A stretch of 64,000 nucleotides of DNA, taken from Branchiostoma floridae (taxonomy: Eukaryota > Chordata > Leptocardii > Amphioxiformes > Branchiostomatidae). Positions 29,801 through 60,768 of the stretch are shown here, piece by piece. The first letter of the stretch is position 1. Each line of letters starts with the position of its first letter. The DNA lies in NCBI RefSeq assembly GCF_000003815.2, contig NC_049979.1, positions 13,083,560 through 13,147,559 of the forward strand. Direction: 5' to 3'. Both the position numbers and the translations under genes were made by a program. A model generated the notes under the pieces. It was not told the origin of the DNA. It saw only the letters and a list, made by a program, of their open reading frames with translations, and did no database searches.

Positions 29801-30803
29801 CTAGTCTAGAAAGCCGTCCGCTCTACTGTTAGGATTGGGACCCGCACTGAACTGGCAGACATAGTACTCCCTCCGGTCGCACTGCTGGTCGTCCCAGCGG
29901 AACCCGGCGGCGGGCCACAGGTGCACACAGTCCTGGGAGGTGGTGGGGTTTCCTCCGTCGTTAGGCTCACCTGTTTCATCAACACAACAAAGGTTCAGTA
30001 TACATAACGGTATACAAGAATAGACATGGAAACGTCAAGCACAAGCAATATTTTATATATCACCAACTGGTAGAATCTCATCCATGTCAGTTTGCATGTT
30101 ATGTCTGGTATGGCCACCCGCTCGTGTCTAGTCGCACTCACGACAGTATATGCTGCTTCTGTAGCACGGTTACATCGGAAGAGATTCCTTTTAAGTAGCG
30201 TTGTCAGAATAAAACAGTCAGGACTCAGGAGTGGCCTTGGCGAGTTCTTAGTAAGACAGTTTCTTTCGATGCTAACCCGAACAAAAATAGATTTTTCAAC
30301 ATAACAATTTGCTCGGCAAAAATGTCCCCTGCATCGATGAACGTTAGACATTCAGGTAATAAGATACGCCCAAAAGCAGTTTCTTAAGCAACTGGATATG
30401 ATTTTGGAAACGGTCAGAATAGACAGATGCTTGAGTAACTGCTTTTTTGGCTTTACGGCAAGTGCAGTTTGGAAGAATGATGCAACAAAATCTACATTAC
30501 TGATACTCCCTACAAAACATCCACTCCTAGTGGGTCCTAGCGGTCTATTACCTAGTGTCCAGTAGCTGTAGCCTGATCCCAGAGGAGTCCCATCGCTCCA
30601 CACGAAGTACCCCTCGTCATTCCTGTCGTCCAGCCCGATCCACGTGTCCCTGCTGCCCACCAGCTGCATGAGGAACAGCTGTGTCTCCCTGTCAGGTACC
30701 GTAGCCAGGATACCCCCATCTTCTGCACACTTCTGCTCAGCCTCGGCAAACGTAGCAGTGGTAGTAGACAGGGCGAAACATCTGTCCTCATACCTGTTGC
30801 AGT
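29801..30803 (-). CDS. Lectin domain exons of the minus-strand gene
   Basis: Two exons, 30803-30552 and 29970-29801. The domain starts at [11 protein letters not shown], has the CTLD core [13 protein letters not shown] and VWSDG, then [23 protein letters not shown] and YYVCQF. EPN is the mannose-type Ca2+/sugar motif of C-type lectins; the usual WND is here W-D-D. The tail after the last cysteine ([15 protein letters not shown]) is unrelated to that of the plus-strand paralogue. The paralogue splits the first exon with an extra phase-0 intron. Confidence 0.9.
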
Positions 30804-58900: not shown

Positions 58901-60768
58901 AGCTTTGTCATCTGGTACCTTCCTGGTGCCAGTTAACGGTGAAAACCTCACCATTGCTGACACGGGAGTCGCCATCTCGGACCCCATCGTAGGATGTCCT
59001 GTGGGCTTCCTGGAGAAGCATACTGACCCTGGATGTCGTGAGTTTTAGACATTCCTCTAAAACCAAATAAAGACATATTATTTGTAATGTATATTCATCG
59101 CAATTGTTCCTCTTTCTTATTTTCTTTCATGTTGTCTGCATCCGTTCTATGAGTATTTTTCTGCATGAATTAATAAAGGTCTTCATTCATTCATTAATGG
59201 CCAGTGCAAGTTCCTCTTAATCAGTTGCCCCATGTCTCCCCCAGTTGCCTGTCCTCCCGGGTCCTTCCATAACCCCATGTCCAAAGCCTGTGAGCCGTGC
59301 CCGGTGGGGACGTACCAGACCAACAGCTCCCAGACTTCCTGCACGTCCTGTCCAGAAGGCACCACCACATCGGCAGAGGGAACAAGTGACCCGGGGCAGT
59401 GCAAAGGTAGATTTATCAAGCCTTATAATATTGTCTGATTTTCATATAAACGATAATGATGTATTTCCATGCCACTTTCAAATCTGTGTACCAACTGGCG
59501 TTGATGTGAAGGCTGCAAGCTACGGGAAGAATTAAAATTTGTTTGTTGCCTGCAAAGCTAACGCATTCTGTGTAAATGTCTGTTATTTAGAATATTCAGA
59601 CTGCAACTGTGGTCCGAACGCCTGTGTGCCTACATCCCAGGGGTGGAGGTGTCAATGTCCGACAGGTCACATCCAGCAAGACGATAAATGCGTTGGTAAG
59701 TTCAGCAGATAATTTGACTTACTTGAATAAGATTTTCACTGACAAAGTGCTTACATGTAGATCAAAGTTTTGGGATAAACATACGCATATGACTTAAATG
59801 TCTTTTCGTCAGTTCTTTTTTAATTTCTATTTTGAGACTTTTGTGTAACTTTTGCATGTTTTTTTTTCAGCCATCACAGAGTGCCCCATTGGTTCAACCA
59901 TGTTCCGAGACACGTGCTACCTGGTGTCTAACACCACAGCCACCTACAGGGCTGCTGGTGAGTCCTGCAGACAGCATGGCGGACTGCTCGCTATGGTCAA
60001 GGACAAGGACACTCAGGTGGGCTACACTACTTTTCTCTCTCAGTTACCTCAGTTATCCTAGGTATATTGTGGTCAATAATGTCAATAGTATCTTCTAACC
60101 CATAACACTTATCATCTCACTTACTAGTGCAGTATCTGTTATCATGAGTGTAGTAAAACCTACTGCAATGTTGCATTAGTCTGAATTAAATATTTGTGTT
60201 CAGGACTTCATCATTCAGAACTACAGTGGGAAGGACATGTGGATTGGCCTGGATGACCGGCTGACTGAGGGGGAATTCCTTTGGGCTGATGGCTCCAGAC
60301 TGGACAGCTTCACCTACTGGACATATGGTCAGTAAAGTAGCACTCGGTAGCCATTCCAGCAGTGGAGACTAACCATGGACATAGAGCCATGGACCATATC
60401 AATTCATATAAGGAACTTCATCCATTTCAATGCATCTACATTGACCAAATAGACATATCATATTAGTGTTCTCATCATTGTGCCTCTTGAAAATGATATA
60501 CTTGTCCTCTTTGTCAGCCTCAGTCATTATTAGAAATACATTGATTTCTAGTTGACATGCGATTTGCTTAATGTATTCTAGTATAATGTATTCAAAATGT
60601 ATATATGTAAATAAGATCTCTTTTTGTTTTCTAGGTGAGCCCAATGATGGAGGAGGCTCGCGGTCCCAGGACTGTGTGCACCTGTGGCTAGCAGCACAAC
60701 TACGCTGGGATGACACCTCGTGTACTAGCAACAGATTCTACATTTGTCAGATCAGCAAACAAACATAG
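46339..60768 (+). CDS. Secreted sushi/EGF/C-type lectin giant protein, plus-strand paralogue
   Basis: Thirty-one coding exons add to 4,962 nt, 1,653 residues, with no frame break. Order: signal peptide, W-R7, TSP1-like, EGF, 19 sushi domains, unnamed conserved module with RTRRRR site, GCC2/GCC3 domain, one EGF and a C-type lectin domain. The gene is complete, and its stop TAG is at 60766-60768, with AATAAA at 60997-61002. Domain order, exon phases and most exon lengths match the divergent paralogue at 29801-43586, so they arose by inverted duplication. No transmembrane segment is seen, so it is secreted. Role by inference: multivalent extracellular lectin in immunity or matrix. SVEP1-like and selectin-like names in databases would reflect shared domains, not orthology. 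Confidence 0.88.
47123..57412 (+). CDS. Sushi (CCP) array of the plus-strand gene, 19 domains
   Basis: One phase 1-1 exon per domain: 47123-47293, 48833-49003, 50861-51034, 51224-51394, 51566-51736, 51971-52141, 52403-52573, 52773-52946, 53207-53377, 53652-53822, 54224-54394, 54585-54755, 54904-55074, 55373-55543, 55790-55960, 56120-56290, 56521-56688, 56889-57068 and 57239-57412. Fifteen are exactly 171 bp. Domain 6 ends at a GC donor (CAAG/GCAAGG). Domain 1 has an extra cysteine pair (GCRTFGC). Domains 17-19 begin RCC, ICC and VCC and have a further cysteine (TCFND, FCFGN, SCYSD), matching the last three of the paralogue. Many middle domains repeat GYELSGS and RTCQADQTWSG, which suggests recent tandem exon duplication. 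Confidence 0.93.
47309..48526. mobile_element. ~1.2 kb inverted-repeat element with GCCGCAA repeats
   Basis: CTCACTTGACGTGCGGCACG at the left is matched by its exact inverse at the right, and the match continues through CTTGCGGCATTGCTGCGTTC (~40 bp terminal repeat). Just inside the left end are three copies of GAGGTGCCGCAAGCAA and about six of CAACAGTGCCG. There is no coding frame and the target duplication is not clear. Located in the intron after sushi domain 1. Confidence 0.8.
49088..50671. mobile_element. ~1.6 kb DNA transposon with GGGAC TIR and TTA duplication
   Basis: GGGACCATACGATATTTATC at the left and the inverse of GGGACTGTACGATATTTATC at the right differ at two bases; poly-G and GGCTGGTGC follow in both. 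TTA flanks both sides (49085-49087 and 50672-50674). Subterminal regions carry repeated CATGGCCCTCCCCC / TCAAAAAAAT units in the same sense at both ends. There is no recognisable transposase. It lies in the intron between sushi domains 2 and 3. Confidence 0.75.
57527..59037 (+). CDS. Unnamed conserved module of the plus-strand gene
   Basis: Exons: 57527-57648, 57897-58008, 58297-58433, 58573-58733 and 58877-59037, ~231 residues. Shared with the paralogue: LC start, KVCYS with C-x-M-x-CNPPK, YQC-x4-TSWLW, NPF and IGGLTI, an amphipathic stretch ending GLCLPPCR, I-x-x-I-(S/T)-V-E, the polybasic site, then a (D/Q)ITIQLYIE-like strand and a GC near the end. The first exon border differs in phase (0 here, 2 in the paralogue). 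No named family recognised. Confidence 0.7.
58603..58620 (+). other. RTRRRR furin-type site
   Basis: Codons for R-T-R-R-R-R followed by D-I-S in the unnamed module. It satisfies R-X-(K/R)-R twice. It sits at the same exon position as RLRKR in the paralogue. Cleavage would separate the sushi stalk from the GCC2-EGF-lectin end unless disulfides hold them. Confidence 0.65.
59245..59695 (+). CDS. GCC2/GCC3 and EGF exons of the plus-strand gene
   Basis: Exon 59245-59406 (162 bp, same as the paralogue) encodes CPPGSFHNP, CEPCPVGTYQ, CTSCPEGTTT: a GCC2/GCC3 ephrin-receptor-like domain. Exon 59591-59695 encodes one EGF (CNCGPNACVPTSQGWRCQC). No DIDEC-type EGF follows, unlike the paralogue. Confidence 0.9.
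59871..60768 (+). CDS. C-type lectin domain exons of the plus-strand gene
   Basis: Exons 59871-60016, 60204-60327 and 60635-60768. Motifs: CPIGSTMFRDTCYLV, GGLLAMV, DMWIGLDDRLTEGEF, WADGS, then GEPNDGGG, QDCVHLW, RWDDTSC and FYICQI. EPN predicts mannose/GlcNAc-type Ca-dependent binding; the WND position is W-D-D. The protein ends 5 residues after the last cysteine (ISKQT). Confidence 0.92.

Follow-up and report, generated by a model that had tools for sequence, protein, structure and literature searches.

Selectins are built in the order lectin, EGF, sushi and lecticans in the order EGF, lectin, sushi. In group XIV lectins the C-type lectin domain (CTLD) comes first (PMC9167495), and SEEC has the order SCP-EGF-EGF-CTLD (PMC514892). 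SEEC (CTLD group XVI) and CBCP (group XVII) are modular CTLD proteins that form groups of their own. In human polydom the ephrin-receptor motif directly follows an N-terminal VWA domain (PMC12549020), and the SCUBE proteins have a spacer of 227-241 residues, encoded by five exons and followed by six-cysteine repeats with one exon each (PMC10214685). In this study, two genes of the lancelet Branchiostoma floridae, referred to as A and B, were analyzed, which lie head to head in a window of 64,000 nucleotides (contig NC_049979.1, positions 13,083,560 to 13,147,559 of the forward strand; C1:13083560-13147559 in the genome searched, which comprises 431 contigs and 513,431,437 bases). Both genes encode a signal peptide, the motif W-R7, a TSP1 module, an EGF module, 18-19 sushi modules, a module of five exons called M (M1-M5), a GCC2/GCC3 module, one or more further EGF modules and a C-terminal CTLD. 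The family to which they belong has two types, and the B-type has so far been found solely in head-to-head units with the A-type.

Like selectins, lecticans and group XIV lectins, A and B combine lectin, EGF and, as in most of those proteins, sushi modules. Unlike in selectins and lecticans, however, the sushi modules precede the EGF and the lectin domain lies at the far C-terminus. As in SEEC and CBCP, the CTLD is part of a modular protein, but TSP1, sushi, M and GCC2 stand where those proteins have SCP or CSPG/Calx-beta modules. Long sushi arrays, EGF and an ephrin-receptor-like module are shared with polydom/SVEP1, from which A and B differ in that no VWA, HYR or pentraxin domain is listed for them, in the C-terminal position of the lectin domain and in the ephrin-receptor-like module following the sushi array. 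The likeness to SCUBE1-3, which are secreted as A and B are predicted to be, lies in M (239 residues in A and 231 in B) together with the six-cysteine exon behind it, which recall the spacer-repeat layout. Unlike in SCUBE, TSP1, sushi and CTLD are present, TSP1-EGF-sushi precede M with no nine-EGF array, and the six-cysteine repeat occurs in one copy instead of three; no SCUBE-type CUB is listed in the whole-protein or C-terminal Pfam scans, and the C-terminus is formed by the lectin domain. Among the titles and abstract openings listed in our literature search, with most subscription papers and supplements outside its scope, the combination TSP1-EGF-sushi-GCC2-EGF-CTLD is undescribed. The initial annotation could not assign the pair to a described family, which is right for the whole architecture in the literature searched, but M+GCC2 resembles the SCUBE unit and a larger family exists in the same genome. 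What sets these proteins apart is a lectin at the tip of a very long sushi rod and its junction with a unit that resembles the SCUBE spacer.

Gene models were obtained from six-frame reading and splice-site scoring, and all splicing is inferred from sequence. Gene A occupies 43586-29801 on the minus strand (32 exons, 1726 codons plus stop, with 25 of the codons being placeholders for gap sequence) and gene B occupies 46339-60768 on the plus strand (31 exons, 1653 codons plus stop, without internal stop or N), positions being those of the window. An interval of 2752 bases (43587..46338) lies between the two start codons. The limits 29801 and 60768 given in the initial annotation are the exact ends of the two spliced models, and the domain order which it described was recovered in both genes by the models together with Pfam. 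A single EGF before the lectin was found in gene B as claimed, but gene A has four (EGF2-EGF5); likewise, the exon phases, which had been said to match, agree at eight of the nine non-sushi boundaries compared but not at the M1/M2 intron, which has phase 2 in gene A but phase 0 in gene B. All sushi exons (18 in A and 19 in B) were modelled as phase 1-1, with the end of A's sushi12 assumed, and 27 of the 31 introns in A and 25 of the 30 in B are in phase 1. The three N gaps of gene A affect sushi12 (37970-38263), the M4/M5 intron of module M (33106-33205) and the 5' end of the EGF4 exon (31352-31451). A GC-AG intron was modelled in gene B after sushi6 (exon 51971-52141; donor 52142-52147).

The signal peptide, W-R7 and the first part of TSP1 are encoded by exon 1 (43429..43586, minus strand, in A; 46339..46511, plus strand, in B), and the remainder of TSP1 and EGF1 by exon 2 (43065..43246 in A, where EGF1 is followed by a weak GTTGAG donor; 46760..46920 in B). 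R7 is kept in both genes though three of the seven arginine codons differ silently. The TSP1 of A matched TSP1_spondin at E=3.7e-6, under the model cut-off, and that of B gave no Pfam match. The sushi modules follow with one exon each, at 35932..42777 (sushi 1-15) and 34816..35712 (sushi 16-18) in A and at 47123..56290 (sushi 1-16) and 56521..57412 (sushi 17-19) in B. Pfam Sushi covers 19 stretches in the whole protein of B (E=5e-207) and 17 in that of A (E=2e-164), whose 18 sushi exons include one cut by a gap. The last three modules of both arrays have six cysteines in a 'CC' pattern instead of the usual four; elsewhere, sushi1 of B has six and sushi4 of A has seven.

Module M extends over 32460..34668 in A and 57527..59037 in B, with the basic stretches RLRKR and RTRRRR, respectively, in M4. 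The GCC2/GCC3 exons (32113..32274 in A; 59245..59406 in B) matched Ephrin_rec_like, which we take to be the GCC2/GCC3 type, at E=1.6e-11 and E=2.3e-10 on C-terminal fragments, the matches being unlisted in the whole-protein scans. EGF2 to EGF5 of A lie at 30969..31990 and EGF2 of B at 59591..59695, where cEGF reached just 0.12 on the fragment; EGF_CA covers three stretches in A, with none listed in B. EGF5 of A (30969-31055) has four cysteines instead of six. The CTLD of A (29801..30803) has two exons (30552-30803 and 29801-29970) and that of B (59871..60768) has three (59871-60016, 60204-60327 and 60635-60768), with an intron in B lacking a counterpart in A. Both carry EPN and WDD and exceed the Lectin_C cut-off of 22.6 bits (A, 5.2e-20, 72.6 bits; B, 6.7e-17, 62.6 bits). 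Among the best 60 of 165 matches of A's lectin domain to solved sequences, mannose-receptor-family proteins, CLEC10A and relatives of DC-SIGN score best, which assigns the fold but not the ligand. No strongly hydrophobic segment follows the signal peptide in either protein, the best 19-residue hydropathy mean past residue 40 being 1.3 (A) and 1.2 (B).

The proteins of A and B align end to end with 38% identity over 1773 columns. Their silent sites are saturated (proportion of silent differences, pS, 0.73; replacement divergence, dN, 0.57) over 725 codons comprising the N-terminal part, the last three sushi, M, GCC2+EGF2 and the CTLD, with the remaining sushi modules and the additional EGFs of A excluded. 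A tree built from all 37 sushi modules joins each of the last three of A to one of the last three of B (A16-B17, 0.80; A17-B18, 0.75; A18-B19, 0.98). Among the other modules, A11-B11 (0.82) is the sole clade of one A and one B member supported above 0.7, so that the array appears either to have turned over or to be unresolved. The inverted duplication which had been proposed as the origin of A and B is plausible, the genes being homologous from end to end and head to head, but its mechanism is not readable because the silent sites are saturated.

A much younger duplication adjoins B outside the window, where B' on the minus strand is followed by A' on the plus strand, giving the order A(-) B(+) B'(-) A'(+). 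Silent divergence (dS) is 0.198 between A and A' (27 of 32 modules, 1425 codons) and 0.193 between B and B' (25 of 31 modules, 1274 codons), with modules excluded when they had no copy, were of unequal matched length or had less than 50% identity. Since the two values are alike, a single event copied both genes; A-type and B-type were copied jointly as a head-to-head unit. With dN/dS at 0.20 and 0.18, respectively, selection has acted against amino-acid change on both types since this last duplication. Between the first pair with its flanks and the copy, 80 inverted matches cover 13.8 kb and 21 direct ones 1.6 kb, part of the inverted matches being a repeat near C1:13145-13146 kb. Haplotype duplication was considered as the origin of B'/A' and judged unlikely because dS is about 0.2 and the introns have diverged more than the exons. 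The 213-kb stretch holding both pairs contains 11,663 N, and some sushi exons are missing or repeated in B' and A'. B' (C1:13156729-13175132) shows four sushi2-like exons about 5-6.5 kb apart, which suggests repeats within the gene or an assembly effect.

Relatives of the pair are numerous. A search with the N-terminal unit gave at least 107 places at E<=0.1 (150 candidates out of 261 were scored), with the window among them and the weakest being doubtful, and a search with M of B, exon by exon, gave 33 places, again including the window (39 of 39 candidates scored). The architecture was read at nine loci (A, B, B', A' and five others designated L040, L041, L044, L045 and L046) and at two on C12. 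The order sushi-M-GCC2-EGF-CTLD was found in L040, L041, L044 and L045, with L040 matching the first lectin exon alone, and eight loci in all share the C-terminal order, with the differences between A-type and B-type retained. L046 is a 4-kb piece with only a sushi18-like exon and M1-M3; the C12 loci L042 and L043 have M1-M3 and EGF-like matches, with no GCC2 or CTLD within the stretch read, and further M matches lie at C1:18.86 and C7:24.82. M1 and M2 are separate in A, B and L040 and form a single open stretch in L041-L045. An exon matching EGF5 of A is present in A' (C1:13228361-13228447) and L041, and none was seen in L044 and L045. N-terminal runs of six to eight arginines without W occur in L016-L018 and L020; TSP_1 was over its cut-off in L020 (1.1e-9) and under it in L016 and L017. 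Among paper texts containing W-R7, judged by titles and abstract openings, there were only a PTPRJ signal-peptide paper and papers on short designed, cell-penetrating or antimicrobial peptides.

In a tree of nine loci, B, B' and C17_0.697 formed a B-type clade with support of 100, A, A' and C17_0.780 (represented by M1-M3 only) grouped at 95 and the two C1:21 Mb loci at 100, while deeper A-type branches were weak (52 and 49). On C17 two N-terminal exons stand head to head, one of B-type on the minus strand near 732.5 kb (GWRRRRGGG) and one of A-type on the plus strand near 751.7 kb (GRRRSGGG), with the matching M exons downstream at 697-699 kb on the minus strand (B-type) and near 780 kb on the plus strand (A-type); judging from strand and order, each gene is probably continuous from N-terminus to M. 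All three B-type loci from the search with M of B (B, B' and C17_0.697) belong to head-to-head pairs. Such units exist at two places in the genome, one of them with a young inverted copy and selection on both types, which makes a paired function directly testable.

The relation of module M to known domains was pursued further. No Pfam family exceeded its cut-off for M of A, B and three relatives, and Pfam on M3-M5 of A and B gave nothing at E<=10, including the SEA model (subject to the search filters). In simple propensities over up to nine aligned family sequences, M3-M5 read as beta-alpha-beta, a variable loop and beta-alpha-beta, a propensity like that of a SEA domain. The M4 loop contains RXXR in all three B-type sequences (B, B' and L040); otherwise it has RLRKR in A and A', RRR in L041 and no such site in L044 and L045. 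In PDB the M+GCC2 profile matched below E 0.02 with its GCC2 end alone (mastigoneme protein, thyroglobulin and ELAPOR1), M drawing weak prefoldin matches at 0.67-0.74. Two candidates were taken as chance, i.e., DUF7808 (0.067 for A's M1-M2; absent in B and three relatives) and RRP41 (four matches of M of B in a PDB sequence search, E 0.56-1.1). A scan of viral contigs with M+GCC2 gave 32 pattern matches, none of them confirmed.

The comparison with SCUBE used a provisional SCUBE sequence, which applies to all of the following values. For the cysteine-rich repeat, 0 of 1000 shuffles were as good against GCC2 of A or of B. The whole spacer against M gave 8/1000 shuffles as good for B and 583/1000 for A, and its last part 1/1000 for B and 537/1000 for A; the M family profile against the spacer reached a probability of 1.7% and E 0.03, with 1/100 shuffles as high. 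A relation of M to the SCUBE spacer is treated as a lead, sequence support being strongest for B in the last part of the spacer, nil for A and weak for the family profile. The SCUBE1 spacer has a basic stretch that binds heparan sulphate, and a minimal furin site is present in the spacers of SCUBE1 and 3; the same 2023 review states that no detailed spacer structure has been published and that invertebrates such as flies and nematodes yielded no SCUBE homologues (PMC10214685).

The reading tentatively preferred here, although it falls somewhat short of even chances, is that A and B are secreted lectins, rod-like and multimodular, about 1650-1730 residues long, which would bridge a host surface and distant glycans. 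The basic N-terminal run and TSP1 would bind acidic glycans on the matrix or cell surface, and the 18-19 sushi modules would serve as a long spacer. Module M and GCC2 would form a SCUBE-like tethering unit, the second half of M possibly folding like a SEA domain; in the B-type, a furin-type protease may cleave M at RTRRRR with the halves staying together, as furin-cut SEA domains remain associated (PMC6954182). The C-terminal lectin domain, in which EPN is kept in six and WDD in all of seven sequences (A, B, B', A', L041, L044 and L045), would bind glycans with calcium. The protein could in this way span the distance from the host surface to glycans of a microbe, host mucus or matrix. B-type proteins would most probably act together with an A-type partner, every B-type locus detected being next to an A-type one, while the A-type also occurs without.

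Several results weigh against parts of this reading. RXXR is missing from the M4 loop in all five A-type sequences, and for this reason a general model of furin cleavage for the whole family was dropped. At least three of the six A-type loci read (L041 at C17:12.48; L044 and L045 at C1:21.14 and 21.25) have no B-type M exon nearby in the search with M of B, and all N-terminal and M matches in C1:21.1-21.25 Mb are on the plus strand; pairing is therefore not obligatory for the A-type, and confidence in it is lowered. Comparing the 600 bases that precede A with those that precede B revealed no similarity (164 of 200 shuffles equal or better), and since some 19 kb separate the two starts on C17, a common core promoter is no general feature of such pairs; the CpG observed/expected ratio (0.64 between the genes, 0.76 in the window) gives no pointer to a shared promoter either. 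In the C17 pair, only R4 and R3 remain of the N-terminal basic run. The lectin domain of A' has EPS, and one position that is usually an acidic calcium ligand is non-acidic in all seven lectin domains.

The alternative that survives best, though on balance it appears unlikely, is a matrix or developmental adhesion protein in the style of polydom/SVEP1 or SCUBE, which would tether growth factors or receptors and whose CTLD would hold host proteoglycans and not microbes. High copy number is more usual for recognition genes, and the many copies in this genome count against such a role, as does the lack of any listed VWA, pentraxin, HYR or CUB domain in A and B, although the whole-protein scans concerned also missed Ephrin_rec_like. 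Selection at a dN/dS of about 0.2 would fit it, and in polydom, too, an ephrin-receptor-like module stands with sushi and EGF modules, the protein binding both integrin alpha9beta1 and Tie1 (PMC10281526); a TSP1 repeat is possible in cnidarian polydom-like proteins (PMC12549020).

Rather less probable is ordinary domain shuffling, by which A and B would be one of hundreds of lectin mosaics, without any special function as a pair, and pairs would persist merely through block duplication. In B. floridae 300 multidomain CTLD genes have been reported (PMC10140915), and in lancelets new domain pairs arise at a rate above 10 per million years, preferentially via phase 1-1 exons (PMC4284660). New lectin combinations are thus to be expected in such a genome, which limits the surprise of finding one. 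The predominance of phase 1 introns and the A-type loci without a detected B-type partner also fit this explanation, but the C-terminal order at eight loci with the type differences kept and the selection on both types at C1:13.1-13.2 Mb speak against it. A stronger version of the pairing argument, in which A/B pairs would be retained because they act together as a two-component lectin system and M would be a SEA-like, protease-cut domain sharing its origin with the SCUBE spacer, is considered improbable; if true, the common origin would date the module before vertebrates. Least credible by far is that the models fuse neighbouring genes, with the lectin or N-terminal part belonging to a separate gene, for which the three assembly gaps in A and the inferred splicing could be cited, because B has no gap and short introns (184 and 175 bases flanking EGF2, 114 bases between sushi19 and M1), 59400-60768 in B contains no AATAAA (though it has two ATTAAA, and one AATAAA lies within an intron of A at 31498-31503), and the C-terminal order is repeated at other loci.

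Some further features were observed. The two longest introns of gene A hold inverted repeats at 32717-32896/33496-33675 (180 nt, 99%) and 36336-36526/37073-37263 (191 nt, 86%), which are probably inserted elements. Elsewhere in the genome, many sushi repeats occur in one open frame of 2423 codons (L001/L002/L007, C15:11.345-11.352 Mb). A WD40-type exon lies at 999-1253 on the minus strand, with the IFT140 propeller model just over its cut-off and HPS5 under. A 64-base satellite unit is repeated in opposite orientations at 8027-9193 (18.2 copies) and 12227-12791 (8.8 copies), and these arrays flank a stretch with two N gaps between exon-like open reading frames at 7250-7600 and 13613-13933; the arrangement looks like a mobile element. 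At 14500-28500 on the plus strand there are tandem AMP-binding (acyl-CoA synthetase/4CL-like) genes, assigned by Pfam on exons of the second copy, in which three exon-size stretches are 93-96% identical between the copies.

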